From NCBI GenBank assembly GCA_003161955.1, contig PMND01000116.1, forward strand, positions 41,537 through 79,784: a DNA stretch of 38,248 nt, in the 5' to 3' direction. The stretch comes from Ignavibacteriota bacterium (GTDB taxonomy: Bacteria; Bacteroidota; Ignavibacteria; UBA10030; UBA6906). Every line of letters begins with the position of its first letter. Position 1 is the stretch's first letter. The position numbers and the translations under genes are program-made. Shown here piece by piece: positions 4,008 to 37,044 of the stretch. The notes under the pieces are model-generated. The model saw only the letters and a list, made by a program, of their open reading frames with translations, had not been told where the DNA came from and did no database searches.

Positions 4008-5341
4008 CCCCACGGGCTCAATGGCTCGCCGCGGCAGCACTGGTACTCGCTTCCTGCGGCACCGGCGACAGGAAGACGGAGGTCGAATACAACTGCCCCG
4101 CCAATGCACTGGAGATCGAAGTGCTCCAGCGGGAGATCGCCCGGTTTGAAGCGGATTCCGGGATCAGGATAAGGCTGAACCCCTTCTCGGGGCAGGACAA
4201 ACTCTACGCGATGATGGCGGCGGGGAAGGCCCCCGACATATTCTACACGAACAGCACGATGCGCGACCGGATGGCGGCCGAAGGGCGCATACTCGACCTC
4301 CGCACCGTGAGCAAGGGGGACTCGTTACCCGGGAGGCTCTGGCCCCATGTCATACGTAACGGGACGTCGGCCGACGGGGGGTGGTACAGCCTCGGAAACT
4401 GGGAATTCACATGCGGGGTCTATTACCGGAAGGACCTGTTCCGGGAGGCGGGGCTCAACCCGCCCGACTCTTCATGGACCTGGGACGACATGGTGAGCCT
4501 CGCGCGGAAACTGACCCGCCCCGCCCGTGCGGACGGGAGAGGGGGACGGTACGGGATATTTATCGGCAGCCACTTCGTGGAAGCGCTCGAGCTGATGACC
4601 GGTGCGGACCTCCCGGGGGAGATGCTCACCTTGAGGATCCCCGCGGAGTCGGCCGATCTCTACCGGCGGTATGTTGCGCTGATGGACGAAGGGATAATGC
4701 CCGATCTACTCAGGATGCAGGCCATGGGGATGCAGCCCGCACAGTTGTTGCAGAACGGAAAAGTGGCCATGCTCGTTGAAGCCGTCCCGAACCAGTCACT
4801 CATCGAAGCGATGACGGAGCCGTGGGGAGTGGCCCCCCTGCCGCGATTCCCCGGAAAAAAGCCGGCATATTTCCGGTCCGCGAGCGGCGGGCTCTCTCTC
4901 TCCGCCTCCACCCGGGACCCCGGCGCAGCGTGGAAAGCGCTGAAATGGATCGTGACGGAAGCAAGCACATACCAGCCGAACCCGGTCCTCAGGGACGTCG
5001 ATTTCACGGGGGGATGGGAAAAGAGGTACCCGCAGCTCCTGGGGAGCGGATTCCGTCAGGTGTGGGATCTGAGCCTGGAGCACAACGGAGGCGACCCCAG
5101 GTTCTTCGTCCGGTTCTCGAGCTGGACGTCCGGCCCCATTCTCGAACGCCTCCAGCCTCTCCTGGACCAGGTCTGGGCGCGGAAGAAACCGGTGGATTCC
5201 CTCCTCGCGGCCGTGCCGGCGATCAACAGTGAAGTCCGCCGGGAACTCGCGGCCACCTCAGCAACCATGACGATGAAACCGGAGTTCAGGGAGAAGATCG
5301 AACAGGCGCTCAAGGAGATGCATGACCACTCCGCGTTTTGA
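4004..5341 (+). CDS. ABC transporter extracellular solute-binding lipoprotein (sugar, MalE-like)
   Basis: The 445-residue product begins MTPRAQWLAAAALVLASC, a lipoprotein signal with the acceptor cysteine at residue 18. The mature part has features of family 1 extracellular solute-binding proteins: FEADSGIRIRLNPFSGQDKLYAMMAAGKAPDIFY near the N-terminus, NWEFTCGVYYRKDLFREAGLNPP, TWDDMVSLARKL, and an aromatic-rich C-terminal half. It should capture an oligosaccharide and deliver it to the two permeases. The ATG at 4004 overlaps the permease stop (ATGA). In a Gram-negative host it would be anchored to the inner membrane; no Asp-at-+2 retention signal is visible (the residue after Cys is Gly). 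The exact ligand cannot be predicted. Confidence 0.93.
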   Translation: MTPRAQWLAAAALVLASCGTGDRKTEVEYNCPANALEIEVLQREIARFEADSGIRIRLNPFSGQDKLYAMMAAGKAPDIFYTNSTMRDRMAAEGRILDLRTVSKGDSLPGRLWPHVIRNGTSADGGWYSLGNWEFTCGVYYRKDLFREAGLNPPDSSWTWDDMVSLARKLTRPARADGRGGRYGIFIGSHFVEALELMTGADLPGEMLTLRIPAESADLYRRYVALMDEGIMPDLLRMQAMGMQPAQLLQNGKVAMLVEAVPNQSLIEAMTEPWGVAPLPRFPGKKPAYFRSASGGLSLSASTRDPGAAWKALKWIVTEASTYQPNPVLRDVDFTGGWEKRYPQLLGSGFRQVWDLSLEHNGGDPRFFVRFSSWTSGPILERLQPLLDQVWARKKPVDSLLAAVPAINSEVRRELAATSATMTMKPEFREKIEQALKEMHDHSAF

Positions 5342-6686: not shown

Positions 6687-8748
6687 GAACGCGAACGAGA
6701 GACCGCTGCCGGTCTCCATGATGGTCTGGACGATTAATGATCCCGTTATCGAGGACATCTCCCTTCTCGAATCGCAATTTGACGATCTGCGGCACGCAGG
6801 ATTTGACGGGGCCGCGGCGTACGTGCGCTGCAGCCGCTACACCTGGAGCGACGGGCCGGCGAGGAAAGCGCTGGCCCACATCAGCGATCTCTGCCGCCGG
6901 ACGGGGTTTCAATTCTGGACCGGACCCGATCCCCGGTTCATCTCAAGGCCGTTGATGCAGCACGGAGGCGGGGCGGAGATACTGCTGTTCGGCGACTCGA
7001 CCCGCGCCGGGAGAATTCCAAACAGCGCCGCCGTCGCGGGGGGACGCTTCTCGGTGCGATGCCTCCTTTCTCCAAGGCACGGACACATGCTGAACGAGGT
7101 GGCACTCGAATATGCCCCCCTCGGCGTCATCAGGTGCTATGCGTTTCGCGACGTCGCTCACCCGTTCGGGACAGGGGACATCCTTGACATCACCCCCGGC
7201 TGCCGGACCTTTTACAACGCCCGGGACCGGTACATCGAGGCGTTCGGCATGTTCGCTCCGCCGGACGGAGACGGGTGGAGAGTCATCGCGTTCTTTCACG
7301 CAGCCTCGTCTCATGCCGACTATTCCGACCGGGCGCAGATGCGTGAATACGCCCGCCGGCTTGAAGAATTGAAACGGGCGGGGGTACGGACAGGGAGCCT
7401 GATGTGGGACGAAGCCGGGTACACATGCACGTACGGGAGCCTCCCGTTCACCCCCGGCATACGAAGAGCATTCAGGCGCTCCTCAGGCTTCGACCTCGAG
7501 AGGCAGATCTGGAAGATGGCGTTCGAAGCGGCGGACCGAAGCCACCTGCCCGTGCGAGTACAGTATTACCGGACGGTCCAGAAGAGCGTCAACGATGCGC
7601 AGCGATTCACCAACCGTGCCATGCGGCGGCTCTGGGGACCCGGGACCATCGCTTCGGTCCATGACACGTGGCATTTTGAATCCGCGGACATGTGCGACAT
7701 GAACCACGGCAGCATGGACCTCTGGGCCGCTTCCCACGTCAAGAGCGGCGGGTTCGTCGACCTCGGCGGCATCAACGCGCTCAGGGACCCGCGGAGCCCG
7801 TACTATGCCAACCTGGCCGCGATGAGCGTCATCGCAGCCTCACTCGGGAGGCACAGCCGGGGAGGCTTTGCGTTCAACAACCTCTGGACAACCGGGGACG
7901 ACGGCGGAGAGGGGTGGCAGCGTGAGGTGATGGACCACTGCGTCAACGTCATGGCCCTCTTCGGACTCAGATGGCTCGCACATGCCTACGGGCCCGTGGG
8001 GACGATCGGCGAGGAGAACACGTTCCTCGGCTCCCCTCCCCTTCCGGGGTACCCGGAGCACTCCACATGGGGCGGGTTCCCGGAGTGGAATGACAGGCTC
8101 CGGGCGCACATTGCAGCAACCGGCGGAGCCCTCCCCTCGGTCAATGTGCTCCTCCTCTTCCCCATCGAGTCGCTCTACGCGCTGGCGGACAGACGGGCGG
8201 ATGAGGCCGCCGCCGCGGTGTTTGCACTGATTCTCGGACTCGTTGATGCCCAGTATCAGGTGGATGTTCTTGCAACGACTGAGGCGGCAAGGGGGGCGTG
8301 GAAAGGGAATAGTTTTGTCATCGGGAGGAATTCGTACGAAGCGGTCATACTCCCGTGCGGGCACGTCATGGAACGGTCGCTCCTGGCGCGCCTGGGGGTC
8401 AACCGGGAACGACTCCTCTTTTTCCGGGACCTCCCTGTCTTCGAAACCGGGGGGAAAACAATCAGATCTTCCGCGAATGTGCCGGCTGCAACCTCCGGCG
8501 GTATCGTACAGGGGCTCGAACTCCTCGGCGTCAGACGCCCCGTCCGGGGCCCGGCAGGGACCTGGGTCACCGCCACGCAGACACAGGGGGGGACTCTGGC
8601 AACGGTTGTCCCGTCACGGCACGGACACACCGTCGAAGGGACTCTGGAGTGCGGGGATTCTCTGGTCAGGCTCACCCTGTCGTCGGGACTCAAACGAACA
8701 CTCTTTCCACACCGGGAGGATTCATCACGCAGTCCGAGACCCCGATGA
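6661..8748 (+). CDS. Putative glycoside hydrolase, GH106/GH42-like TIM-barrel protein
   Basis: The 695-residue product follows the layout of large clan-A-like hydrolases such as GH106 rhamnosidases. Residues about 15-270 contain a (beta/alpha) barrel interrupted by a beta insert and include MMVWTIND and MWDEAG (248-253), where D250/E251 are candidate acids. Next come a segment like RAFRRSSGFDLERQIWKM and VRVQYYRTV, which matches the substrate-barrel pattern of GH106-like proteins. Near residues 490-580 is a Rossmann-like domain (VNVLLLFPIESLYAL, then NSYEAVILPCG) seen in GH42/GH106-type enzymes. No signal peptide is evident, so it is probably cytoplasmic. The start at 6661 overlaps the previous gene; ATG 6679 is an alternative. 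The family assignment is by pattern and could be a neighbouring unclassified group. Confidence 0.6.
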   Translation: MYSSKPMNKNANERPLPVSMMVWTINDPVIEDISLLESQFDDLRHAGFDGAAAYVRCSRYTWSDGPARKALAHISDLCRRTGFQFWTGPDPRFISRPLMQHGGGAEILLFGDSTRAGRIPNSAAVAGGRFSVRCLLSPRHGHMLNEVALEYAPLGVIRCYAFRDVAHPFGTGDILDITPGCRTFYNARDRYIEAFGMFAPPDGDGWRVIAFFHAASSHADYSDRAQMREYARRLEELKRAGVRTGSLMWDEAGYTCTYGSLPFTPGIRRAFRRSSGFDLERQIWKMAFEAADRSHLPVRVQYYRTVQKSVNDAQRFTNRAMRRLWGPGTIASVHDTWHFESADMCDMNHGSMDLWAASHVKSGGFVDLGGINALRDPRSPYYANLAAMSVIAASLGRHSRGGFAFNNLWTTGDDGGEGWQREVMDHCVNVMALFGLRWLAHAYGPVGTIGEENTFLGSPPLPGYPEHSTWGGFPEWNDRLRAHIAATGGALPSVNVLLLFPIESLYALADRRADEAAAAVFALILGLVDAQYQVDVLATTEAARGAWKGNSFVIGRNSYEAVILPCGHVMERSLLARLGVNRERLLFFRDLPVFETGGKTIRSSANVPAATSGGIVQGLELLGVRRPVRGPAGTWVTATQTQGGTLATVVPSRHGHTVEGTLECGDSLVRLTLSSGLKRTLFPHREDSSRSPRPR

Positions 8749-11138
8749 CCCGCGGAGAAGAGTCCCCGGATTCCTCCGGCGCTCCTGTCCGGATTACGGG
8801 GAGGCTGAATTTCGAACGGACCGATGAACCGGGCCTGTTCCGTCTTTCGCCGGTGAAACCGGGAAACGGAGAGGTCAGGATCCTCATCCTGTTTGACGGA
8901 ACGGACTACCCGTTCGAGCGGCACTACCGCTATGCCCGGCACAGGGGCGCGGGGACGCCCTACACTTTCTCCAATCTGGAATTCAGCGAGGAGGGACCGG
9001 GGATCCGGGTCGGACCATGGCCGGGATGGCGGGGAATTCCGCACTTCCCCCGGGTGACGGTGAATGCAGGTGAGAAACCGGCCGGCGTCACAATGATGCC
9101 CTGGGGAGACGAACTCACGCGTCGTGCGATCCGCGGCGTGGCATCACTTGACCTGTCCGCTGGGGGCACAGTGCGCTGCGATGTCGGGGACGCGCGGCTC
9201 CGCCCCGTGCACGCAGATCTGTACGCAGGCCGGCTCCCGCACGCCGAACCTCTCCCCGTTTCACTCCGCCCGGAAATAGGAGGGACGTTCCCGAGACTGC
9301 TCTTCACGCAAAGAGAGATCCCGGCACTGAGGGAAAAAGCGCACGGCTCGCACCGGGACTACTGGGAGCGGATACTGAACCTGCTGGAAGGAGGCCAGCT
9401 CCCGTGGGAGATCACGCCCGAGTCGAAAATCCCTCCCGGACCCGAGCGGCTGAGCGCCGGGGACAGGTGTCTGATGGCCGCTTTTGCCGCACTCATCGAT
9501 CCTGCTCCGTCCCGGAAATCGCTGGCGAGGGAATCGTTCCTCGGGTACATCCGGGAGACGCAGCAACGCGGGTACCAGCCGCTCGGCATCGACACGCAGG
9601 CCGGAGAGACGCTGTTCGTCCTTTCGCTCTGTTACGATTGGACGCATGAAATGTGGGAGGACGGGGAGAGGGCCGGGATACGTGGCTGGATTCGTGACGT
9701 CGCCGGCATCTGCTGGTCGCATCTCGGGTATGAGCGCCGCGACTACGGGCAGGCCCACTATCTGGGCTGTGCACTGGGACTGCTGGCGTTTTCTTTTCTG
9801 TTCTGGGATGAAGACCCGCGCGCAAAGGAATGGGCCGGCCACTGCCGGGGGGTCCTGGACACCGTGATATCGATGATGCCCCGGGACGGGTTCTACCCGC
9901 ACGGGATCAACCTCTGGATCTACGAACACGGCTTCCTCCTCCGCTGGCTGGAGCTCTTCCGCGTGTGCACGGGGACCGACCTCTGGCACCCTGCCGAGAC
10001 GTGGGTAAACTGCTCGGCGTTCCGGAGGGCATGTACGTCATATGACGGACTGTACGGGGCGACGTTCGGAGATCCGCAGTACCGGGTGGGGGGGGACAGC
10101 TGGTGCCACTACCTGATCGCGGCACGGACGGGCTCGAGGCATGCGCAGTGGCTGGGGGACATGCTGCGGGATGTCGATCCCGAAGGGGTCGATTTCCGCA
10201 GCGTCCCTCCCCGGAGAAGGCTCTACGAGTTCCTCTTCCATGACGACTCGGTGCAGGGGGAGCACCCTGAGGACCGCGTCATGGCGTTCCCGGACGGAGG
10301 ACAGATCTTCGCCCGCGGGGAGGGAACGGACCCTTCTCTCTTCACGTTCCGGGCCGGATCTCCGCTTGGACGACGGCGTTACGGTGCAGGGGAAGCGGGG
10401 GGCTACGGCCACGCCGACCCGGCGAACGGGTCGTTCCTTCTCTATCTCGCCGGTGGACCGGCGATCTGTGGACCCGGACCGACGTACAGGAGGGACACGT
10501 CGCTTCATAACACCGTGACAATAGACGGCCAGGGGCAGATCGGTGACTCAACCGTCTGGCTCCCCGATTTCATCCCCCCGGAAGTCATCTGCCCCGACCC
10601 GGAGTTCGAGATCAGGGGGGGACGCGTCTCAATCAAATCCGAGATTGCACCGGCGTACCTCCCCCACCTGCAGGTGGAGGAGTGCCGGAGAGCGCTCTGG
10701 ACGGATCCGGGACGCTGCATCATCGGGGCGGACAGAATCCGGTGCACGGAGCCGCATTCCATCGAATGGAACCTGCATACCGGCGAAATCAGGGGAGTCT
10801 CGAAATCCGAAGGATCCGTGACCGCCGATCTCGCCGGTCCGGGGAACTTCTGCAGGCTGATCCTGCTTGATCCCACCGATGCGGCAATGGAGACAGGCCT
10901 GACAGAAATGGTTCCGGCCTATCCCCACGACGGAACGAGGATCGCCCACATACGGTTTTCCGTGAAGAGGAGGGAAACCGGCTTCCTCTGGTGCATCCTC
11001 TTCGATCCCTCGATGGAGGGACCGAGTGTCACGAGGGAGACGGGACGGATTTCACTCAAATTCGCCGGAGGGCTCACGCTTTTCTACGTGGACGGATTTC
11101 TCACTGAGGGGGAAGAGGATGAACATCAGTCTCGATGA
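8745..11138 (+). CDS. Heparinase II/III family protein
   Basis: The 797-residue product has the three-part build of heparinase II/III-like lyases: an N-terminal beta region (1-190), a central (alpha/alpha) toroid (about 200-480, with PRLLFTQREIPALREKA, YDWTHEMW, and DYGQAHYLGCALGLLAFS) and a C-terminal beta-sandwich. The C-terminal part includes GYGHADPANGSFLLYLAGG and LHNTVTIDGQGQIGDS, the hallmark His-Ala-Asp and HNTV..DG motifs of the Pfam Heparinase_II_III domain. Such enzymes eliminate uronic-acid-containing polysaccharides or oligosaccharides. There is no signal peptide, so the substrate is probably an imported oligosaccharide. I start at ATG 8745 because it overlaps the previous stop (ATGA); the frame remains open upstream by chance. 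It overlaps the next gene by 20 bases. Confidence 0.85.
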   Translation: MTRGEESPDSSGAPVRITGRLNFERTDEPGLFRLSPVKPGNGEVRILILFDGTDYPFERHYRYARHRGAGTPYTFSNLEFSEEGPGIRVGPWPGWRGIPHFPRVTVNAGEKPAGVTMMPWGDELTRRAIRGVASLDLSAGGTVRCDVGDARLRPVHADLYAGRLPHAEPLPVSLRPEIGGTFPRLLFTQREIPALREKAHGSHRDYWERILNLLEGGQLPWEITPESKIPPGPERLSAGDRCLMAAFAALIDPAPSRKSLARESFLGYIRETQQRGYQPLGIDTQAGETLFVLSLCYDWTHEMWEDGERAGIRGWIRDVAGICWSHLGYERRDYGQAHYLGCALGLLAFSFLFWDEDPRAKEWAGHCRGVLDTVISMMPRDGFYPHGINLWIYEHGFLLRWLELFRVCTGTDLWHPAETWVNCSAFRRACTSYDGLYGATFGDPQYRVGGDSWCHYLIAARTGSRHAQWLGDMLRDVDPEGVDFRSVPPRRRLYEFLFHDDSVQGEHPEDRVMAFPDGGQIFARGEGTDPSLFTFRAGSPLGRRRYGAGEAGGYGHADPANGSFLLYLAGGPAICGPGPTYRRDTSLHNTVTIDGQGQIGDSTVWLPDFIPPEVICPDPEFEIRGGRVSIKSEIAPAYLPHLQVEECRRALWTDPGRCIIGADRIRCTEPHSIEWNLHTGEIRGVSKSEGSVTADLAGPGNFCRLILLDPTDAAMETGLTEMVPAYPHDGTRIAHIRFSVKRRETGFLWCILFDPSMEGPSVTRETGRISLKFAGGLTLFYVDGFLTEGEEDEHQSR

Positions 11139-26539: not shown

Positions 26540-27994
26540 CTACTTAATGCCGAGCTCCTTGCACATTCGATAGAAGTTCGACGGCGCGAGTCCGAGCTTT
26601 TCGGCGGCGTTCGAGTCGGAGCTGGAGATGCTCCGGACGTACCTGAAGTACCGCGTCCTGAACACACGCTCCACCTCCCGCAGCGGCATAACGTTGCCGT
26701 TCGACATGTCGTCGAATCCCGACCCATCTTTCCCCAGGACGGGATTCGGGAGAATCATCGGGTTGCTGACGTCTTTGGCCGTGATGCTCTCAGGACAATT
26801 CAGCACCAGACGCTGGACCACGCTCCTGAGCTCCCGTACATTCCCCGGCCACCTGTAGTTTATCAGGATCTCCCTTGCCTTCGCGTCGACGGCCGGCATC
26901 GACACCCCCATGTCGTTGCTGAAGTACTCCAGGAAGTGGTCGAAGAGCAGGAGAATATCTTCTCCCCGCTGCCAGAGCGGGACGATGTTCAGGGGAACGA
27001 TGTTCAGACGGAAATACAGGTCCTCGCGGAATCGCCCTTCGTTGACCTCGGCGGCCAGGTTCTTGTTTGTGGCGGCGATGAGCCGGACGTTGACAGAGAT
27101 GCTCTTCGTCCTCCCGATTTTTTCAATTTCACCGTCCGCGATGACCCGCAGGAGCTTCACCTGTGCGGAAGGGGAAAGCTCCGACACCTCGTCCAGGAAC
27201 ACCGTCCCGTGGTTGGCGATCTCGAAGAGCCCCTGTTTCGCCGCGTTCGCCCCTGTGAACGAGCCCTTTTCGTATCCGAACAACTCGCTCTCGATCAGCT
27301 CATGAGGGATGCTCCCGCAGTTGATCGGGATGAACTTTTCGAACCTCCGCCGGCTTTTCAGGTGGATGTTCCAGGCGACAAGTTCTTTCCCCGTACCGGA
27401 CGCCCCACTGATGAGGATATTGACCTCGCTCTTCGCGTATTTTTCGATCGATTCCTTGAGCTGGAGCATCGGCTTCGACTCGCCGATGAGCCTCCGGAAT
27501 TCGAGCAGACTCTCGACCCCCTGCATCAGCGTCCGGTCCGCCTTTAGCGAGCGCTTCTCCAGTTTTTTCTTTTCGTATGCATTGAAAATGCTGAGCATGA
27601 AATCCGTCGGCTGGTAGATGTACTCTTCGATGTGCCCCGGGTACTTCGTGCAGTACCAGAACGCGCCCGCCTTGAGCAGGTTGTTCGCGAATTCGTAGTC
27701 GGTGATGTTGATCGTCATCTTGGTAATGACGATGATCTGGATGCACGGGTCGATTTCCTTGATCTTCCGGATAAGCTCCTCCCCCTTCAGCCCGCCCGAG
27801 ATCTGGTAGTCCAGTATCACCACGTCATACGCGTCCGTCTTCTTCTCCAGCAGCTCCAGCGCCGCCCGGCCGTTCGACACCACTTCAGCGATCCGGACCC
27901 GCTCCGAGTAAAACCGGAGAGTGTTCTTCACCCTCGCAACGTCGAACTCTTCATCTTCAACGAGGAGAATTGCAATTGCATTCGAGGTACTCAT
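26540..27994 (-). CDS. Sigma-54-dependent response regulator, NtrC family
   Basis: The 484-residue protein has three domains. Residues 1-130 are a receiver, with acidic residues in VEDEE (12-16) and phosphoacceptor Asp62 in VVILDYQ. Residues about 165-400 are an AAA+ sigma-54 activator domain: Walker A GASGTGKE (197-204), the sigma-54 contact loop as GSFTGA (244-249, Ser in place of the usual Ala), Walker B GTVFLDEV (263-270), and WPGNVREL (382-389). The last 25 residues are a Fis-type helix-turn-helix (NAAEKLGLAPSNFYRMCKEL). When phosphorylated it should activate promoters with sigma-54. I start at ATG 27994; TTG 28021 is a longer alternative. It is the third gene of a set with the histidine kinase and the anchored solute-binding protein. 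Confidence 0.96.
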   Translation of the reverse strand: MSTSNAIAILLVEDEEFDVARVKNTLRFYSERVRIAEVVSNGRAALELLEKKTDAYDVVILDYQISGGLKGEELIRKIKEIDPCIQIIVITKMTINITDYEFANNLLKAGAFWYCTKYPGHIEEYIYQPTDFMLSIFNAYEKKKLEKRSLKADRTLMQGVESLLEFRRLIGESKPMLQLKESIEKYAKSEVNILISGASGTGKELVAWNIHLKSRRRFEKFIPINCGSIPHELIESELFGYEKGSFTGANAAKQGLFEIANHGTVFLDEVSELSPSAQVKLLRVIADGEIEKIGRTKSISVNVRLIAATNKNLAAEVNEGRFREDLYFRLNIVPLNIVPLWQRGEDILLLFDHFLEYFSNDMGVSMPAVDAKAREILINYRWPGNVRELRSVVQRLVLNCPESITAKDVSNPMILPNPVLGKDGSGFDDMSNGNVMPLREVERVFRTRYFRYVRSISSSDSNAAEKLGLAPSNFYRMCKELGIK

Positions 27995-28060
27995 GGGATT
28001 ATCCGACCTTTGATCCGACAACCGTTGATCCCGCTTGTTCCGGCCCGGGGCCGGGCACTA

Positions 28061-29566
28061 TCACTCGTTCCTGATCGCAATCATGAATCTGCATCCGCCC
28101 TCCGGCAGGTTCTCCGCGTCGAGATCCCACCCGCACTTCCCCACCGCAAGCTGGTAGGCGATGTAACAACCGTATCCCGAGTGCATCCCGCCCCCGCCCT
28201 TCGTCGTTTCCTGTTCGAGAAATATCCTCTTGATACCCCTCGCACCGGGTTGAAGCAATTCTTCCGCAATTCCCACCCCGTCGTCCGCGATCGTGACGCG
28301 GGTCACCCCTTCTTCCCGCGAGTAGTGCGTTTCGATCCTGATCGTCAGCGAATTCTTCCCGCCGTGGTCAATGCTGTTCTGAATCAACGGTTCAAGGATT
28401 TCCCAGACGATGAATTCGTTGACATGCACCGGGGGGAGCGAGGGCTCCAGCTCAAGCCGGAATGCGAACATTTCGTTCTTGCTCGAGATCCGCAGGAAGA
28501 CATGATTCACGATGAAACCGACGACCGAGTTGATGTCCGCATTGAATATCGGATTCACGATCGTGTTGATATCCTGGTCGTACCACTTCATGTCATAGAT
28601 GATCCGCGAGATGAAGTTCGCGTAGGTCAGCACACGCCCCTTGAGCTCGTCAAGATTCCGGGGATTCATCCTGCGCGCGTCTTCCTTGATGAACCCGATG
28701 ATTTTTTCCGCCTTGTGGTGCGTGTGGTAGATCCTGCGCGTAAAGAGAGACTCCTTCTCCAGCCGGATCTGGTTTGCCAGGTACTCCTGGTGCTCCGCAA
28801 ACAGCTTCTGCTGCATGTCGTTCCGCTCCCTCACCGCCAGGGACGACACCGCAAAGATCGCGATCAGCCCTACGAGTATGAGCGCAGAAAATACAATCGA
28901 AAGCTCGTCCGCGTTCGACCGGACTTCGTTTGTGAGGAAAGAAAAATCGGGGGTAATCCGCATGTAGAGCGCGCCGATATACTCCCCCTCGGGCACGAAC
29001 GGCACGAGCACATTGAACGTTTTCTCGCCCGTCAGCGCGCTGGTGATCTTTTCGTGCTCCTTGAGATCATTCTGGACCAGGAGGAAGTACCTGACAGCCT
29101 GCGAGGCCCCGGATGTCGTGTCACCGGCGTACGGCCGGAGGGTCCCTTTGAAGTATGCGTACATCGCCTGGCCGTTGCTTATGACATACAGGCGCTTGTC
29201 CTTCAGCAGGATCAGCCTGATGTCCTCGATGCTTCGCTGTATGAGCTGCTGCTTGATGAAGACGTTCAGGGAATACACCATCGCGTTGTCGGTGCTGTCG
29301 TATTCCGTCTTCACGGGGGATTGATTCTGATAGAGCAGCTCGAGGCTGGCGGAAGTCACAATCGCAATCCGCTCGGCGTAATATTTCTGGAACCAGTTCT
29401 GCGTCCCCTGCAGAAATCCTCCGAGCAGGGATTTCTGTAAGAGCGCGAGTATGATCTGGAAGGAGATGAGGACCGCGAAGAGAACGATAATATGCCTGAT
29501 CTCGAAGCGGTACTTCGAGAGCTTTCCCCTCAGTCGGTCGGGGATCAGGTCACGGTACGATTCCAC
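28061..29566 (-). CDS. Membrane sensor histidine kinase with periplasmic sensor domain
   Basis: The 501-residue protein has one membrane helix near residues 24-44 (HIIVLFAVLISFQIILALL), a periplasmic domain (about 45-220), a second helix (about 222-243) and a cytoplasmic kinase core. The ATPase part is clear: N box EPLIQNSIDHGG (392-403), G1 DDGVGI (428-433), G2 GGGGMHSGYG (457-466). The phosphoacceptor region is unusual, with YHTHHKAEKIIGFIKEDARR (from 280); H281, H283 or H284 is the likely site. It resembles the LytS/Spo0B-like group of kinases with an atypical H box. It starts three bases after the solute-binding protein stop and precedes the regulator by 66 bases, so the three most likely form one signalling unit. 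Confidence 0.93.
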   Translation of the reverse strand: MESYRDLIPDRLRGKLSKYRFEIRHIIVLFAVLISFQIILALLQKSLLGGFLQGTQNWFQKYYAERIAIVTSASLELLYQNQSPVKTEYDSTDNAMVYSLNVFIKQQLIQRSIEDIRLILLKDKRLYVISNGQAMYAYFKGTLRPYAGDTTSGASQAVRYFLLVQNDLKEHEKITSALTGEKTFNVLVPFVPEGEYIGALYMRITPDFSFLTNEVRSNADELSIVFSALILVGLIAIFAVSSLAVRERNDMQQKLFAEHQEYLANQIRLEKESLFTRRIYHTHHKAEKIIGFIKEDARRMNPRNLDELKGRVLTYANFISRIIYDMKWYDQDINTIVNPIFNADINSVVGFIVNHVFLRISSKNEMFAFRLELEPSLPPVHVNEFIVWEILEPLIQNSIDHGGKNSLTIRIETHYSREEGVTRVTIADDGVGIAEELLQPGARGIKRIFLEQETTKGGGGMHSGYGCYIAYQLAVGKCGWDLDAENLPEGGCRFMIAIRNE

Positions 29567-29569
29567 GGC

Positions 29570-30886
29570 TCACCTCTCAACCGCGAGTGACTGATCGGCA
29601 TTGATGTCGCGGCTCGCCCCTTCGACCGCCTCATCAACGCTGATCTTGTTTCTCATCGCGAGGGAGAAATAGTGCGACATGATCTTCGAGTAATTCGTAT
29701 AGTCTTTCACCGCGGGCCGATGGACGCCCGTCTTCAACCGCTCACGGATGCCGGCGATTTCGGGGTACTTCCTGAGGCTTGCGGAGTCCTGGTAAAATGA
29801 CGTCACGACCGGGTAATATCTCGATTCACTGTAAAACACCTCCTGCGAATCATCACGCAGCAGGAATTTGACGAAGTCGACAACCGCTTCTTTTTTCTTG
29901 CTGAACTGCGATATCATGAGATCCCACCCGCCGAAGAGTGATGCGGGTCTCCCTCCCGGGAGGTACGGCAGCGGCGCTTTCTTCATATGCTGCTGCTTCT
30001 CCCTGTCGTAGGGCTGGTCATTGAAGTCCATGTCATATGTCGTCCAGCCCCTGAGAAAAAGCCCGTTGTTCCTGATGAAGTACTCGTAGCTCGGAGCTTC
30101 GGTGAACGAGGTGACGACCGCGGGGGATGCGTTGTCCTTATGCAGCAGGTCGACCATCTGTTGGAGGGCGCGCTTCCCCTCCGGAGTGTCGAAGTTGAAG
30201 CCAACGGTGGTAAAATAGTCAGGTTTCAGGCTGAGCAGGTTTTCGATATAGTTACAGATAAAACCCTCGTAGTCGGCGGCGGGAAAGACGTAGAACGGTC
30301 CCTGGTACCCGAGCTTCACTTTCAGTTTGAGAAAATCGGGCCAGGTCATGTCGTCCTGCAGCGCCCGTATCGCGTCTTCCCCCCCCGGGAGTGATTTCAG
30401 CAGATCCTCACGATAGTAGAGGCTTGACTGGACCATGTCCAGAGGGACGGCAACGAGCTCGCTGTCACCGTGGCACGAATAGAGCGCGTCAGGGACGATC
30501 CTCCTGAGCTCCTCCGCTGAGAAGTACTTCCCGAGCGGTTCGCACCAGCGCGCAAACCGTTTTACCCAGACGATGTCGACCCCGATGAGGTCGATTCCAT
30601 CCTCCGCGCCGCGCAGCGATCGAGCGAGGATCTCCTTCCGTTCGTTCGTACTGAAGTCAATGTTCGGGAAGTCGACGGGGATTACCCTGATTTTCCCCGC
30701 ATTCAGCCTGTTATATCTCTCGATGAGTATCCTGTGAGCATCGGTAATGCGGTCCGCAAAATAGATCTCCGTGACGCTGGAAACGGGTTTAGACACGAAC
30801 AGCGAATAGAGCACAAGATACAGCAATCCCACCACCACGAGGATGAGGACACCGGAACTCCACTTCAACTGCTTGATCGTGCGCAT
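29570..30886 (-). CDS. Membrane-anchored extracellular solute-binding protein (sensory partner of the kinase)
   Basis: The 438-residue product has an uncleaved-looking N-terminal membrane helix, LILVVVGLLYLVLYSLFV (14-31), with no lipobox and no obvious cleavage site, followed by a family 1 sugar-type solute-binding fold. Typical segments are HRILIERYNRLNAGKIRVIPVD, GIDLIGVDIVWVKRFARW, VPLDMVQSSLYYREDLLKSL and FFGGWDLMISQFSKKKEAVVDF-like ending sequence. No permease genes are nearby on this strand. It is three bases upstream of the histidine kinase gene. The arrangement, with an anchored binding protein and a two-component system and no transporter, suggests sensing, as in XylFII-LytS of clostridia, here with a sigma-54 regulator. 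The 130-base gap before it (30887-31016) has no clear signal. Confidence 0.9.
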   Translation of the reverse strand: MRTIKQLKWSSGVLILVVVGLLYLVLYSLFVSKPVSSVTEIYFADRITDAHRILIERYNRLNAGKIRVIPVDFPNIDFSTNERKEILARSLRGAEDGIDLIGVDIVWVKRFARWCEPLGKYFSAEELRRIVPDALYSCHGDSELVAVPLDMVQSSLYYREDLLKSLPGGEDAIRALQDDMTWPDFLKLKVKLGYQGPFYVFPAADYEGFICNYIENLLSLKPDYFTTVGFNFDTPEGKRALQQMVDLLHKDNASPAVVTSFTEAPSYEYFIRNNGLFLRGWTTYDMDFNDQPYDREKQQHMKKAPLPYLPGGRPASLFGGWDLMISQFSKKKEAVVDFVKFLLRDDSQEVFYSESRYYPVVTSFYQDSASLRKYPEIAGIRERLKTGVHRPAVKDYTNYSKIMSHYFSLAMRNKISVDEAVEGASRDINADQSLAVER

Positions 30887-31016: not shown

Positions 31017-32420
31017 TCAGCGGTCACCCGTCACATCATGCTGATGCACCCGTCCGTGGAACATCGTGCGGAGCCTCCGGATGCAACTGATCATCGATCT
31101 CGACGTGTGATAGTCGGCCTTCCAGATGGTCCCCTTCGGGGCGTTACGATTCCCCGGGGCCTTGTCAAGGCCGCCCCAGTACCATCCCCCATGATCCCCG
31201 TCTATGACGTAATTTTTGCAGTAGTCCCACTGGAGGGTGAATTTTTCATAGTAGCTCCGTCCGTCCCGGGGGTAAAGCATCGACATCATCAGGAAGGTGT
31301 TCAGAGCTTCGGCCTGTGCCCACCATTCCTTCGTGTCCCGAACGATCCCCACATGCTCCCCCGTGCTGCGGGTGTCCCCGCCGTCGAAGATCCCCCCGTG
31401 CTCCGTGTCCCATCCATGCTGCAGGGCAAAATCGACTTTCTTCTTCGCAATCCTGAGCGTCGTCGTGTCGTCTCTGATCCCCAGCCCCTGCGACGCCTCC
31501 ATCATCAGGTACGCGGTTTCGACGTCATGGCCGAAGGAAATATGATCGAGCTCATAGTCAGCACGGCTCCCCTGCCCGCCGGCATCCCGGCGTGACACCG
31601 GCGTCCAGTCGCGTCGAAAGAACAGGTTCATGTATCCCCTGTCATTCGTAATCGTATCCCGTACGATGTGCAGCAATGACGCAAGGCGTTCTTTCAGTAT
31701 GGAATCCGGCCAGACGTCGTACAGCGCCGTGTAGGCTTCCATCAGGTGGATCATGGAATTCTGGTCCTTGGGCGGGACGCCGTGAAATCCCTCCGGGAAC
31801 GGCCGGCCCTCTCTCGAGAGGAACTGGAAGTACCCGCGGTTCAGGGAATCGTAGCTGTGGCTCTCGAGCCAGCGATATGTCTGCAGTGCCAGGTCCAGCG
31901 CACCCGTGTCGCCCGAGGCCTTGTAGTACGTCGCCAGCCCGTATATGGCGAAGGCGTTCCCGTACGCCGTCTTGTTGGACGCACCCTGTTCCGTGACCGG
32001 GTCCCCGCGCCTGTCCACAAGGTTGAAGAACCCGCCGAATTCCCTGTCCCACATCCTGTCCCTGAGAAAACTGTAGCCGTGGGCTGCGAGAGGGATGAAG
32101 CGCCGGTAGTCCCGCTTGAACATCGCCGCATTGGCAAGCGACCAGATATGCCGGGCCTGCGTGACGATCATCTTATCCTGGCGCCCGTCAAGCTCCCACC
32201 TGTAGTTTATGTCGCTGAAATAGCCACCGTACACCGTATCAACGGAAAGCGGATAGAACAACCTGAGCTCGTCGTCGAGCGTTCGCTCCAACTGAGCTGC
32301 GATCGAGTCACTCACCGTTATCCCTCCCCCCTGCGGGTTCTTTGCTTTCCCCCCGGGGATCGCACAACACGGAAGCATCAGAAACAGGGAGAGGATCGGG
32401 AATGCAGTCATCCGCTTCAT
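31017..32420 (-). CDS. Exported cellobiose 2-epimerase-like (AGE family) protein, probable lipoprotein
   Basis: The 467-residue product begins MKRMTAFPILSLFLMLPCCA, a signal sequence with two cysteines (18, 19) in a weak lipobox-like context. The body is an (alpha/alpha)6-barrel of the AGE/cellobiose 2-epimerase family. Family-typical segments are YGGYFSDINY near residue 64, TQARHIWSLANA near 87, DQNSMIHLMEAYTALY near 219, catalytic-site histidines H298 in SFGHDVETAYLM and H438 in DYHTSRSM, and EWWAQAEALN (365-374). Cellobiose epimerases convert the reducing glucose of beta-1,4 disaccharides to mannose. The family is normally cytoplasmic, so export is notable. A GAGG site precedes the ATG. 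It is 40 bases downstream of GH9 in the cellulase cluster. Confidence 0.9.
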   Translation of the reverse strand: MKRMTAFPILSLFLMLPCCAIPGGKAKNPQGGGITVSDSIAAQLERTLDDELRLFYPLSVDTVYGGYFSDINYRWELDGRQDKMIVTQARHIWSLANAAMFKRDYRRFIPLAAHGYSFLRDRMWDREFGGFFNLVDRRGDPVTEQGASNKTAYGNAFAIYGLATYYKASGDTGALDLALQTYRWLESHSYDSLNRGYFQFLSREGRPFPEGFHGVPPKDQNSMIHLMEAYTALYDVWPDSILKERLASLLHIVRDTITNDRGYMNLFFRRDWTPVSRRDAGGQGSRADYELDHISFGHDVETAYLMMEASQGLGIRDDTTTLRIAKKKVDFALQHGWDTEHGGIFDGGDTRSTGEHVGIVRDTKEWWAQAEALNTFLMMSMLYPRDGRSYYEKFTLQWDYCKNYVIDGDHGGWYWGGLDKAPGNRNAPKGTIWKADYHTSRSMISCIRRLRTMFHGRVHQHDVTGDR

Positions 32421-32460: not shown

Positions 32461-34941
32461 TTACCTGTTCAATATGTGGTCCGCGGCCATCGCAAGGATC
32501 ATGAAGTCGACTGCGCCTCCGCCCATGACGTACTCCGTCTGTTGCCAGAAATAGGGCCAGGTTTTCAGTTCCGGCAGGTCCGGGCGGATCAATGCCGTCC
32601 CGCTCCCCACGCCCCCCGGGATGTACGACCACTCGTCCCTGTTCGCACCGTATGCCACGGTGAGCGACTTCACGCCGACGCCGGAGGCGAATGACGCGGT
32701 GTTCTCGCCGGGATGGCAGCCGAGGACGAAGTTCAGGGCATTGAATGCATACGCGGGCGTCATGAGCCGGGGGAACCCCAGGGAAAGAAACAGCTGTCGC
32801 ACTCCGAACGATTGGATCCCCCACCCCGCCCCCCATATCTGCGGCTCATACGGAACTCCGTACGGGTTCTCCTTCTCCAGCTCCCGGACCTTCCGGGCGT
32901 AGTCCGTCACACCGCGTTCGATCCTCCCGGTAAACGCCGCGTTACCGAGCTTCGCGACGACCCGTCCGATGAATTCACTGCTGTGCTCAATCCTCTCGCC
33001 GATCAGATCTGCGTTCCCGAGGAGCAGTGCCGCATATTCCTGCTTTGATGTGGACAGATACAGCTCCCCTGCGGTGTTCAGCCTCTCACCCGCCGGACGT
33101 GACAGGTTCCTCCGGTAAAGCTCCTCCGCGATCCTCAGGGATTTCGCGGACAGGACAGGGTTCACTCCCGACATCACCCTGCCGGCCGCGGCCAGGGTCT
33201 GTGCGACATACAGCTCTCTCGCGGGGTTCTTTTCCGTAAACAGCCACCGGTCATCCGCAGGGAGAGGCCGGTGCAGGATGGGATCCTCCCCGTGCGCGTC
33301 GTAGATGATGTTGTCCGTCATCGTCTCCGCGTCGCCGAGGTGCACATACTGGCGGAGCGTGGGACAGATCACTCCCCTGTACAGCCTCCCCAGGGATTCG
33401 TACCCCCCGATGATGCTCAGAAGCCCGTGTTCAATCTGTTGAAGGATGTCCGCCTTGCCATCAGGCCTGTGCATCTCGACGACTCTCGTCTCCTCGTCGA
33501 TCGATGTCGCATCGTAATCATCTCCGAAGAACTCATAGGCGAGCGACAGTTTGTAGACCGTTTCGGCCTGGGACTCCACCCGGAGATCGTAGTCACCCGC
33601 GTCATGCCACCCGCCGATGTTCACACCGGGAATGTGCTCGCCCGGGCGGAACGTCGTCAACGTCGACTCCTGCTGCCTGTACCCGTCGAAATGGTTGTGG
33701 TTCACCGGCGCCATGAGCGCATCGTCCATGTGGCAGAGACCATGCCAAACCTTGTACCTGTCATTAATCCTCATGTGGCACATCTGCACCGGCAGGAAAT
33801 ACTCGAGCGTCGGCTGCCAGACATGCCTGGCAAACACGTCGTCCCGGATCTCAAACTCATTCGATGCGACGTTGCCGTATCTCACCCTGTATATTCCCTC
33901 CCGCCTCACATCACTGAAGTCGAAGCGCACATACCTGTACCGGAGGAATCTTCCCCAGGGTTTCGGGTCAGGATCCTTTTTCACCACTCTCTGGGAATCC
34001 TGATCGATCCGTATCAACTCGACCGGCTCAAATACGTCGGTTGATTTGTCCAGCTCGATAACCGCACATTTTGCCTGTTTCGGGTGATACCCCACCTGCG
34101 AGACCTGTATGGCCGGTGCCGACCTCCACCCGGGTTTCACCCTGGGAGTTATGACCCATTCCACCATGTTCCCGACCGTTCCCGCCGGAATCTTCGAGCG
34201 GAGCACAAACCAGCCGTTATTGTACAGACCTCTCCCGTCGAGCAGCTCCAGATCCCCCCTGTCGCTGACAATTGTCATTTCCTTTTCTTCATTCCCCGGC
34301 GCCACGACCAGATTCCGTCCGGCGGCCAGGGGCATGATCCGGACGTCTCCGTTACTGTCCGCCAGCATCGGGCCGTTTGCCTGCCGGGGGAATATGCCTG
34401 CTCTGCCATCCATGACAAAGTGTTCGCCGAAAAGCTGACCCGGAAAGAGCTCAAGGTTGAATCCAACGCTGTTTGCCCACTTCTCCGGCAGGGCTTTTTC
34501 CAGGCTCACGATGATTCGTATCCCGTCCCCCGCGGGTTCCGTCGTGATCGAATACCTGAAGGCAAGGTCCGGATAGCTGATCGGATTGAATCCCCTCCGA
34601 TCCTTGCTCGAATCCGGGTACCAGAGTGTGACGGTGACCGTTCCGCGTTCCCTGTTGATCGTTCTTTGTCCGACACGGGGAACGGGGGACCACTGTCCCG
34701 GGGCGGGTTCAAGGCGGACATCTCCGTTGGCTGCCACCCGCCGGCCGCACTGGACGATTGTCACCCCCCCCTGGTGGCCTTCCGGGTAGAAGTCATCAAA
34801 TACCATGACATTCAGCCCCGGCCGTTCATAGTACCCCGCATCATTAAGCTTCAGTCCGGATGCCGGCGGTCCGGTCTGGCCTGTGGAAGCTGCGTGAGAC
34901 GCCAGAAGGAACGCCATCGGGAAAAGAAGGGACTTGCACAT
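32461..34941 (-). CDS. GH9 family endoglucanase/cellulase, secreted, with extra N-terminal domain
   Basis: From ATG 34941 (GAGGTGG site) the product has 826 residues, starting MCKSLLFPMAFLLASHAAS. Residues about 25-265 are a beta-rich domain not usual in GH9 enzymes. At about 277-368 a CelD-N-type immunoglobulin-like domain begins with IQVSQVGYHPKQAK. The GH9 catalytic (alpha/alpha)6 barrel runs from about 375, with the catalytic Asp pair in GGWHDAGDYDLR (D447 and D450) and the general acid region WQQTEYVMGG (E803 candidate). GYHPKQAK and DAGDYD are strong family marks. It should cut beta-1,4-glucan outside the cytoplasm. It lies between the aldolase and the epimerase gene in one direction, so all three probably share a transcript. 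Confidence 0.95.
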   Translation of the reverse strand: MCKSLLFPMAFLLASHAASTGQTGPPASGLKLNDAGYYERPGLNVMVFDDFYPEGHQGGVTIVQCGRRVAANGDVRLEPAPGQWSPVPRVGQRTINRERGTVTVTLWYPDSSKDRRGFNPISYPDLAFRYSITTEPAGDGIRIIVSLEKALPEKWANSVGFNLELFPGQLFGEHFVMDGRAGIFPRQANGPMLADSNGDVRIMPLAAGRNLVVAPGNEEKEMTIVSDRGDLELLDGRGLYNNGWFVLRSKIPAGTVGNMVEWVITPRVKPGWRSAPAIQVSQVGYHPKQAKCAVIELDKSTDVFEPVELIRIDQDSQRVVKKDPDPKPWGRFLRYRYVRFDFSDVRREGIYRVRYGNVASNEFEIRDDVFARHVWQPTLEYFLPVQMCHMRINDRYKVWHGLCHMDDALMAPVNHNHFDGYRQQESTLTTFRPGEHIPGVNIGGWHDAGDYDLRVESQAETVYKLSLAYEFFGDDYDATSIDEETRVVEMHRPDGKADILQQIEHGLLSIIGGYESLGRLYRGVICPTLRQYVHLGDAETMTDNIIYDAHGEDPILHRPLPADDRWLFTEKNPARELYVAQTLAAAGRVMSGVNPVLSAKSLRIAEELYRRNLSRPAGERLNTAGELYLSTSKQEYAALLLGNADLIGERIEHSSEFIGRVVAKLGNAAFTGRIERGVTDYARKVRELEKENPYGVPYEPQIWGAGWGIQSFGVRQLFLSLGFPRLMTPAYAFNALNFVLGCHPGENTASFASGVGVKSLTVAYGANRDEWSYIPGGVGSGTALIRPDLPELKTWPYFWQQTEYVMGGGAVDFMILAMAADHILNR

Positions 34942-34975
34942 CAACCACCTCGTGAGGGAGGGAGGAGGGGGGTCT

Positions 34976-35698
34976 TCAGGCCGGAAAGCCACGCCTGCGT
35001 GCCTCCTCCAGTATGCTTTCCGTTGCCGTGGCTCCGATCCTGCTCACACCAAGCCGGCGTACACGCAGCAGGTCATCCAGCGTCCGTATGCCGCCCGCCG
35101 CCTTTATCCCAATGCCGGCGGGACAATTCGCCCGCATCAACCGGAGATGGTGGTCTGTCGCCCCTTTATACGCGTACATCCCACCCGGTTGCTTCACGAA
35201 CCCGTAGCCTGTGGAGGTCTTGACAAATGCCACATTCCGCTCCGCGCACAGCTCGCAGAGTCTGACAATGTGCGTGTCTTCAAGAAAATCGTTTTCGAAA
35301 ATCACTTTGAGCAGGGCTTGATGACCCGTAACGACGCTATTGACCGCCCCGATCTCCGCGGCAACATAGTCCCAATCGCTCCCCAGCACCCTGCCGATAT
35401 TCACAACCATATCGATCTCACCGGCGCCGCTGAGCACCGCCTCTTCGGCTTCCCGGACCTTCATCGACGTCGTGCTGTTACCATGCGGGAAAGCGATAAC
35501 TGCGCAAATCCCCACACCGGAGCCCTCCAGCACACTTCCGGCAAGCCGGATCGCATACGGTTTCACGCATGCCGTCGCCACCGCATAGCGCTTCGCGAGC
35601 GTGCACCCGGCCGCGATCTCTTCATCCGTCATCGTCGGATGGAGCAGAGAATGGTCGATCATCTTCGCCAGCGCCGTCAGACCGGGGGTGTCTTCCAC
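34976..35698 (-). CDS. deoC: Deoxyribose-phosphate aldolase
   Basis: This 240-residue cytoplasmic enzyme cleaves 2-deoxyribose 5-phosphate to acetaldehyde and glyceraldehyde 3-phosphate. The family motifs are unmistakable: MIDHSLLHP at the start, Asp96 in GAGEIDMVVNIG, the Schiff-base Lys160 in AFVKTSTGYG, and Lys199 in GIKAAGGIRT. Length matches typical bacterial DeoC (about 220-260). The GTG start has GGAGTG six bases upstream. The gene begins three bases after the GH5 stop and ends 34 bases before the GH9 start, so it sits inside a cellulase cluster. It may work in an unrelated pathway, or act on a sugar phosphate from glucan catabolism. Confidence 0.96.
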   Translation of the reverse strand: MEDTPGLTALAKMIDHSLLHPTMTDEEIAAGCTLAKRYAVATACVKPYAIRLAGSVLEGSGVGICAVIAFPHGNSTTSMKVREAEEAVLSGAGEIDMVVNIGRVLGSDWDYVAAEIGAVNSVVTGHQALLKVIFENDFLEDTHIVRLCELCAERNVAFVKTSTGYGFVKQPGGMYAYKGATDHHLRLMRANCPAGIGIKAAGGIRTLDDLLRVRRLGVSRIGATATESILEEARRRGFPA

Positions 35699-35701
35699 GG
35701 G

Positions 35702-36808
35702 TCACTCCGATCCGTGCGGTTTGGCCTGCATGGCCCCCTTGAAAAACTCACCGCTTTCCGTCAGCGCGTATGTATTCCAGGAGTTTATCATCGACGGGGT
35801 CCACTCCGGGTCGAACACCCACGCGACCCAGCTTATCCCCCTCCCTTCCAGATAGCCCACGATCGCTTTGCCGTACGCTTCGTTATCTGCCATCCCTCCC
35901 CTGCCGTTTGTAAACCCTATTTCGGTCGCGATGACGGGGAATTGATCGGCCGCAAATCCGAAATCCTCTTCCCATTTCGGCTCCCATGGTTGTGTCCGTT
36001 TGTGCGGATACGGGTGCGTCACGTAGGCGATCCCCTCCTCCTCCACAGGGTTGATCCGGAGGGGGGTAAGATCGTACGCCCAATCGAAGCCTGCGACCAG
36101 GGGGATCTTCTCCCTGTCGAATGCGCGAATCACGCTGATCAGGTCTTCGTTTGTTCTCTTCCACTCGTCCCAGGACATCCGTCCGAGCTGGTTGAAGTAC
36201 AGGGTCGGCTCATTGAAAAGCTCGTAAAACGCGGCGGTGTTGTGTCCCTTGAAATGTCTGGCGATCGTGCGCCAGAACGCGAATGTCTCAGCCATCGAGG
36301 TATTGTACATAGGATCCTGAAAGAGCCCGTTCTTCAGATTGCCTATCGAATGCCAGTCAATGATGACATACATCCCGAGGTCCGTGCACCATTCCACCGC
36401 AGAATCGAGCAATGCGAGATACTGCGCGGGAGTCCGCTCACGCCATGCGACCGGATGGACCGGAATGCGCACCAGGTGCGCCCCCATCTCTTTTACACGC
36501 GAGAAGAGTTGCCTGCTCCAGTGCCCCTGGCTCTCGATCTTGTCCGGATCAGCGATCGAGAGCCCCCTGAAGAGGACGACATTCCCCCCGGGATCGACGA
36601 ACCTGTTTCCCCTGACCGATATCAGCGGAAGCTTTCTGGACAGGGGACTGTTGAGGGACTCGCCCGGGTGTCTTTCGTCCCACCAGCTGTGAATCTTCTT
36701 CTGCCGGGACTTTCCTGTCATTGCGGCATCGTGTTCCTGGGCGCGGACATCGCGAGTCAGGCATAACATCACGAGACAGAGAGCGGCTTTGATAACCGGC
36801 GCCTTCAC
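35702..36808 (-). CDS. GH5 family endoglucanase/mannanase, secreted
   Basis: The 368-residue protein has a signal peptide (MKAPVIKAALCLVMLCLTRD) and one TIM-barrel domain. LVRIPVHPVAWRER (112-125) carries the conserved Arg and His pattern of clan A; VIIDWHSIGN (148-157) has the substrate-binding His; Glu200 in YELFNEPTLYFN is the acid/base; Glu296 in VIATEIGFTNGRGG is the nucleophile. The closing WVAWVFDPEWTPS is a typical eighth strand. It cleaves internal beta-1,4 links in glucan or mannan; which one cannot be decided. GTG start with GAGG six bases upstream. It leads the co-directional cluster with DeoC, GH9 and the exported epimerase. Confidence 0.96.
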   Translation of the reverse strand: MKAPVIKAALCLVMLCLTRDVRAQEHDAAMTGKSRQKKIHSWWDERHPGESLNSPLSRKLPLISVRGNRFVDPGGNVVLFRGLSIADPDKIESQGHWSRQLFSRVKEMGAHLVRIPVHPVAWRERTPAQYLALLDSAVEWCTDLGMYVIIDWHSIGNLKNGLFQDPMYNTSMAETFAFWRTIARHFKGHNTAAFYELFNEPTLYFNQLGRMSWDEWKRTNEDLISVIRAFDREKIPLVAGFDWAYDLTPLRINPVEEEGIAYVTHPYPHKRTQPWEPKWEEDFGFAADQFPVIATEIGFTNGRGGMADNEAYGKAIVGYLEGRGISWVAWVFDPEWTPSMINSWNTYALTESGEFFKGAMQAKPHGSE

Positions 36809-37044
36809 TGAAGACCTCGATAAAGAATTGTGGGATGCGGAGGAGAATGAACGGTGACTTGACGTGAATTAGAGTACACTAATAATGCCAGAATCGACCT
36901 CCTCAGGACAGCCAAAATCCAGGAGAATTCGACCAATACGGACAAACTCTCGCTCTGGAAAATTACCGTTGTGATCGTGTTTTATCAAAATGATAATGCC
37001 GCCGGGGCCGGTCTGTTTACACTGTGCGAGGGGCATGTCACTTG
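36809..37044. promoter_or_regulatory. AT-richer upstream region of GH5 with palindrome
   Basis: This stretch is about 42-45% GC, clearly below the surroundings. It holds the promoter region of the GH5-led cluster. TTATCA-AAA-TGATAA (36982-36996) is a perfect palindrome and a candidate regulator site. On the minus strand TGGCATTATTAGTG near 36879-36891 has a -24-like TGGCA, but no -12 GC at the right spacing, so a sigma-54 promoter is not supported. A minus-strand frame (36869-37090, 73 codons) is open here, but its product resembles nothing I know. Confidence 0.35.

Follow-up and report, generated by a model that had tools for sequence, protein, structure and literature searches.

The locus and its genes

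The window, that is, the whole 38,248-nucleotide stretch of an Ignavibacteriota contig analysed here, carries three adjoining genes on the minus strand, each with its own domain match: a solute-binding protein (SBP), a histidine kinase and an NtrC-type response regulator (Table 1). The kinase gene starts 3 bp past the SBP stop codon. A sequence-only reading had proposed this trio at positions 27994 to 30886, a span that holds the SBP and kinase genes but leaves out the regulator gene, which extends to 26540. We confirmed its statement that no permease adjoins the trio; another SBP, a lipoprotein, is encoded with a BPD_transp_1 permease elsewhere in the window. This sugar ABC set is followed by an ORF containing a Hepar_II_III_C domain, and the two may form a uronan-type locus.

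Genes for GH5, a DeoC/LacD-family aldolase, GH9 and an AGE-family epimerase precede the trio on the same strand, with gaps of 3 bp (GH5-DeoC), about 0 bp (DeoC-GH9), 40 bp (GH9-epimerase) and 130 bp (epimerase-SBP), and the whole run from GH5 to the trio may be co-transcribed. A partial GH94 gene lies further upstream, across the control region from the GH5 run. The aldolase gene between GH5 and GH9 is kept in the congeneric genomes L033 and L035.

Table 1. Positions of the genes and control elements in the window
Feature	Position	Strand	Remarks
NtrC-type response regulator	26540..27994	-	484 aa; Response_reg + Sigma54_activat E 1.6e-66
Histidine kinase	28061..29566	-	501 aa; HATPase_c E 8e-12
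Solute-binding protein (SBP)	29570..30886	-	438 aa; SBP_bac_1 E 5.5e-19
AGE-family epimerase	31017..32420	-	nearest model cellobiose 2-epimerase EpiA, below cut-off
GH9 with CelD_N domain	32461..34992	-	ORF start uncertain
DeoC/LacD-family aldolase	34976..35698	-	3 bp after GH5
GH5 (Cellulase family)	35702..36808	-	first gene downstream of operator/promoter
Candidate sigma-54 -24/-12 site	36875..36890	-	TGGCATTATTAGTGTA; 91 bp downstream of operator copy 1
Operator copy 2, degenerate	36963..36977	-	CGATCACAACGGTAA; 19 bp from copy 1; also kept in L033 and L035
Operator copy 1	36982..36996	-	TTATCATTTTGATAA; found exactly three times in the 3.5-Mb genome
Partial GH94	37364 to beyond window
Lipoprotein SBP and BPD_transp_1 permease	2218..5341	+	sugar ABC set
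Hepar_II_III_C-containing ORF	8355..11138

Conservation of the trio in Ignavibacteria

The SBP, kinase and regulator genes were adjacent and co-oriented in 67 of the 67 loci in which all three were complete enough to score; the few other trio loci lay at contig ends or had split frames. This adjacency is conserved far beyond chance. When the proteins of 150 relatives were searched, roughly one genome in three had a strong homologue of the kinase, and the trio was found in 42 of 396 genomes sampled from the phylum. GTDB contigs yielded 34 loci whose titles read Ignavibacteriae/Ignavibacteriales, Melioribacter or Bacteroidetes/Bacteroidota, and a search of plasmids with the kinase gave no match. 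The trio is conserved across Ignavibacteria, and the prospect that it would not recur elsewhere, which the sequence-only reading had named as its weak point, did not materialise. The recurrent trios lie beside plant-polysaccharide genes. By kinase identity they fall into two clades, the window's clade (55-95%) and a distant clade (37-47%). SBP and kinase distances co-vary with an r of 0.88, which comes partly from shared phylogeny.

The solute-binding protein is anchored and is not a lipoprotein

In the structural model of the SBP, residues 2-31 form an N-terminal transmembrane helix, and no lipobox is present. A hydrophobic N-terminal helix was seen in all SBP members examined; a loose lipobox pattern occurred in one of 64 trio SBPs, and that one lay within the helix. 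Lipobox cysteines are present in six other SBP_bac_1 proteins encoded by the genome (L140-L143, L145 and L147). A membrane anchor without a lipobox, as had been read from the sequence, is therefore correct for the window SBP and for the trio family. The trio SBP also lacks the combination that marks SBP lipoproteins of ABC transport, namely, a lipobox or cleaved signal peptide and an adjoining permease, so that it is not a transport-type lipoprotein, which bears on the other outcome that the earlier reading had considered. In a tree of the trio SBPs and the lipoprotein SBPs of the genome, the two groups separated on long branches with weak support (72/93).

The AF2 model of the SBP (pLDDT 92) had its top fold matches in Thermotoga maritima MalE3 and Thermococcus litoralis TMBP. 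Three conserved residues, R83, W321 and R390, align with R49, W287 and R356 of the Thermus alpha-glycoside-binding protein, in which these three and D118 are mutated in PDB entries. The fourth pocket position, residue 152 of the SBP, corresponds to D118; it is Asp in 37 of 37 distant-clade SBPs and Val in 25 of 31 SBPs of the window's clade. The retained pocket residues, together with the clade-dependent Asp/Val position, suggest that trio SBPs probably still bind sugar ligands, with two specificities. C138 and C211 are nearly or fully invariant and could form a disulfide in the sensor SBP.

The kinase and the sigma-54 activator

The kinase consists of a transmembrane helix, an extracytoplasmic alpha/beta domain, a second transmembrane helix, an unclassified DHp region and a HATPase_c domain. 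The fold of its core resembles that of ordinary kinases, and none of 59 trio kinases matched the Pfam DHp families HisKA, HisKA_2, HisKA_3 or His_kinase at E <= 0.01. The motif FTKRIYHTHHKAEK contains three histidines, of which the third, H284, is the only invariant one, and the DHp region is a candidate for a new phosphoacceptor class. This motif (kinase residues 275-300) and IYDMKWYD (315-330) are near-invariant in the region that Pfam leaves unmatched. No REC domain was found in the trio kinase, which is thereby unlike the hybrid kinase of the LuxPQ-LuxU-LuxO phosphorelay.

The regulator has a REC domain with an invariant D62 and an AAA+ domain with GxSGTGKE, FLDE and a G[A/S]FTGA loop, and it combines the phosphorylatable Asp, the Walker A/B motifs and the GAFTGA-type loop of NtrC-type proteins. 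It is not of the YesN/AraC type; its Sigma54_activat match bears out the earlier view that a sigma-54 activator is the output component of the trio. That view had also singled out GSFTGA in place of GAFTGA. GSFTGA is indeed present at regulator residue 244, but it is an ordinary variant (GAFTGA in 34 members of the family vs GSFTGA in 26), and we rejected it as a special feature and gave it no weight. The C-terminal 73 residues matched no Pfam HTH family above the cut-off, and the full-length alignment reaches the ends of the NtrX/NorR models; this segment is putatively a Fis-like DNA-binding domain. Residues 91-131, at the end of the REC domain, are unusually invariant (TKMTxN...FAxxLxxAGAxWYCTKYP..IxxYIYQPTDF), possibly as a kinase- or dimer-specific surface.

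RpoN was found in 55 of 60 relatives. The rpoN gene of this genome is split into two adjacent frames (contig C87:6843-8178; L107 and L108), probably by an assembly error, because rpoN is full length in most relatives.

A tandem palindrome common to trio loci

The palindrome TTATYA-N3-TRATAA, which we take as an operator (upstream activating sequence), is common to the trio loci, with 47 exact copies in 72 loci against about one expected from first-order Markov sequences. Forty-five of these copies are intergenic, and in spacer controls the half-sites at spacers other than 3 gave 0-7 copies. The palindromes often form pairs, at 18-19 bp in the window's clade and at 22-23 bp in the distant clade; permutations of the palindromic matrix yielded 0-1 correctly spaced pairs per class. 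A weak-threshold matrix for the single operator performed no better than its permuted form (217 vs 217), and we therefore restricted the counts to exact sites and to pairs with the right spacing. On this basis, and in the flanks available, 31 of 67 trios had no operator, partly for lack of flank. In distant homologues, the regulator gene is followed by the palindrome, a TGGCAY-type site and then a gene for an SSS symporter, a glycan-degrading enzyme or a TonB receptor. Among low-background genomes, at least two palindrome copies were present in 17 of 27 with the trio vs 4 of 59 without a detected trio, figures that are not independent because trio and operator share phylogeny. The position of the operators, the clade-linked spacing and the sigma-54 geometry described below suggest that the trio regulator binds them.

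Sigma-54-like sites and helical phasing

We searched within 15-125 bp of the operator clusters for the sigma-54-like pattern TGGYRY-N6-TGH. An outward-facing -24/-12-like site was found near 35 of 57 clusters, compared with 2 in the inward-facing control and 2% at random positions. The distances from operator to site fell at 50-52, 60-63, 69-73, 82-84 and 90-94 bp, phased at 10.35-10.5 bp (R 0.76); none of 5000 smoothed resamples reached this R, and the phasing stayed after the commonest distance class was dropped. An enhancer that acts by looping from one face of the DNA would need such phasing. Computationally, the target genes thus have the enhancer sites upstream of -24/-12 promoters that characterise NtrC-type control.

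When the window alone was scanned with a generic sigma-54 matrix, matches were no more numerous than in shuffled sequences; the promoter candidate in the window was recognised only by comparison, after the operator had been seen in distant homologues. Its counterpart in L033 is TGGCATTATCTGTGCC. In the three congeneric genomes (the window's, L033 and L035), the operator pair, a TCTGGCAY...GTGY site and the leader are conserved, and the intervening DNA is unlike. At the -12 element, GT or GA frequently stands in for GC, and the window has GT there. The sequence-only reading had advised looking for sigma-54 sites beside the trio, and a -24/-12-like site with an upstream operator pair does precede the run from GH5 to the trio. 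The trio very probably switches on polysaccharide genes through these operators and sigma-54 promoters.

Target genes and the likely ligand

The exact palindrome occurs once upstream of the GH5 run and twice on contig C132 (L129-L131), which has two further copies with one mismatch; each of the four sites there belongs to a tandem pair spaced by 18-19 bp, and TGGCAY sites follow three of them. The genes on C132 encode a GH130 mannooligosaccharide phosphorylase, an AGE epimerase, GH27, GH2, GH5, an acetylesterase, MFS_2 and a TonB receptor. No trio was found on this contig, which would therefore be controlled in trans. The proposal that the trio acts on adjacent cellulase genes holds insofar as the operator and promoter lie upstream of the GH5 run, but "cellulase" is too narrow, because the C132 cluster is of mannan type and other trios adjoin SSS symporter, TonB or CBM9 genes. 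The GH130 and epimerase neighbours, which established knowledge of the mannan pathway links to mannan, suggest a manno- or glucomanno-oligosaccharide ligand in the window's clade; overall, a manno-, glucomanno- or cello-oligosaccharide appears most likely there.

Discussion

We interpret the trio as a three-component sensor of beta-linked oligosaccharides that activates mannan/glucan utilisation genes through sigma-54 and feeds back on itself, with a probability of roughly 0.8. Its uncleaved N-terminal helix would keep the SBP on the outer face of the inner membrane, and there the protein would bind a short beta-linked oligosaccharide that extracellular glycoside hydrolases release. The ligand-bound SBP may then engage the extracytoplasmic alpha/beta domain of the kinase and alter its activity, and the kinase would autophosphorylate, likely at H284, and pass the phosphate to D62 of the regulator. 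Oligomers of the phosphorylated regulator would bind the tandem operators. Hydrolysing ATP and acting through the GAFTGA/GSFTGA loop, they would open sigma-54 RNA polymerase at a -24/-12 promoter that lies 50-94 bp downstream, on the same face of the DNA. The predicted targets are the GH5-DeoC-GH9-epimerase run including the trio, which would give positive feedback, and, in trans, the mannan-type cluster on C132.

The SBP might instead be an orphan transport protein whose place beside the kinase-regulator pair is incidental, with the pair sensing something else; its nearest relatives in sequence and fold are the ABC transport SBPs MalE3 and TMBP, and the extracytoplasmic domain of the kinase could bind a ligand directly. 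This is very unlikely given that the SBP adjoins the pair in every complete locus, that SBP and kinase distances co-vary (partly through shared phylogeny) and that the protein has no lipobox or adjoining permease, whereas the six other SBP_bac_1 proteins of the genome do have a lipobox. It is unlikely, too, that another regulator, such as Fur or a repressor, binds the palindrome while the trio regulator acts elsewhere. The half-sites TGATAA/TTATCA occur in Fur boxes as well, and four low-background genomes without a detected trio carry the palindrome at least twice; however, the order of the half-sites is opposite to that in a Fur box and the 22-23 bp spacing of the distant clade cannot form one, on which grounds a Fur-box identity was rejected. 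Against any other binder, the spacing changes with the trio clade, the palindromes precede sigma-54-like sites by 50-94 bp, in the helical phase of an enhancer, and the targets are carbohydrate genes.

That the regulator binds the operator but TGGCAY belongs to another element, the promoter being independent of sigma-54, appears highly improbable. Many sites, that of the window among them, have GT or GA in place of the -12 GC, and some TGGCAY-type sites are near-palindromic; nevertheless, the GG-N10-G frame is kept, a full GC is present in L033 and GC also in L055, L079, L085, L089 and others, the sigma-54 activator domain of the regulator is intact and the inward-facing control was nearly empty (2).

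As adjacent and conserved genes without a permease, the trio resembles SBP-assisted three-component systems such as CuaDSR and XylFII-LytS. In XylFII-LytS-YesN, a signalling-dedicated SBP likewise assists a kinase that senses an extracellular sugar; its regulator is AraC-type, whereas that of the trio is NtrC-type, the likeness drawn here being one of function. The sequence-only reading had named XylFII-LytS among the known sugar-sensing sets, but it is not the sole precedent because LuxPQ-LuxU-LuxO of Vibrio joins a periplasmic binding protein and a kinase to a sigma-54 response regulator (PMC5394107). The latter is the nearest precedent for an SBP combined with sigma-54. LuxP is of a different SBP class and is not known to have a transmembrane anchor. 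That system also differs in its hybrid kinase and HPt relay, its quorum signal AI-2 and its small RNA output (PMC5394107). The nearest functional relative of the trio is CuaDSR of Ruminiclostridium cellulolyticum, an operon of a family-1 SBP, a kinase and a regulator that senses the beta-disaccharide cellobiose and controls cellulose and cellobiose use, and in which CuaD binds the extracellular part of CuaS (PMC10384115). By contrast with the trio, this system has a lipoprotein as its SBP (CuaD), a HAMP domain in its kinase (CuaS) and a YesN/AraC-type regulator (CuaR) rather than a sigma-54 activator, and its target is an ABC transporter operon, which is absent beside the trio (PMC10384115). 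The enterobacterial QseG-QseE-QseF likewise has three components and a regulator that binds to upstream activating sequences of sigma-54 promoters, but QseG, a lipoprotein, is no SBP, and the targets are glmY and rpoE (PMC6075780). CelR of Bacillus thuringiensis is a sigma-54 activator governing cellobiose use but is a PRD-domain activator of a PTS operon (PMC10864463), with no kinase or SBP.

Our literature search found no paper on sigma-54 control of glycan loci through an SBP and a two-component system. The hybrid two-component systems of Bacteroides are single fused proteins with AraC-type output. They resemble the trio as membrane sensors that control polysaccharide utilisation loci, and in a 2024 review of bacterial hemicellulase regulation the modes named are HTCS, ECF-sigma and CCR, with no mention of sigma-54 (PMC10766802). 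It is reasonably likely that Ignavibacteria have a distinct form of polysaccharide-locus control, typical of the group and built from a tethered SBP co-receptor, a kinase with undescribed phosphoacceptor and sensor domains and phased tandem sigma-54 enhancers, and that its two specificity branches, one mannan-type and the other SSS/TonB-type, differ jointly in SBP residue 152, operator spacing and targets. The operator, promoter and spacing rule would provide a predicted regulon code for largely uncultured degraders of plant matter, by which likely inducer classes could be assigned to many loci, and would offer testable, strictly enhancer-driven sugar sensors.
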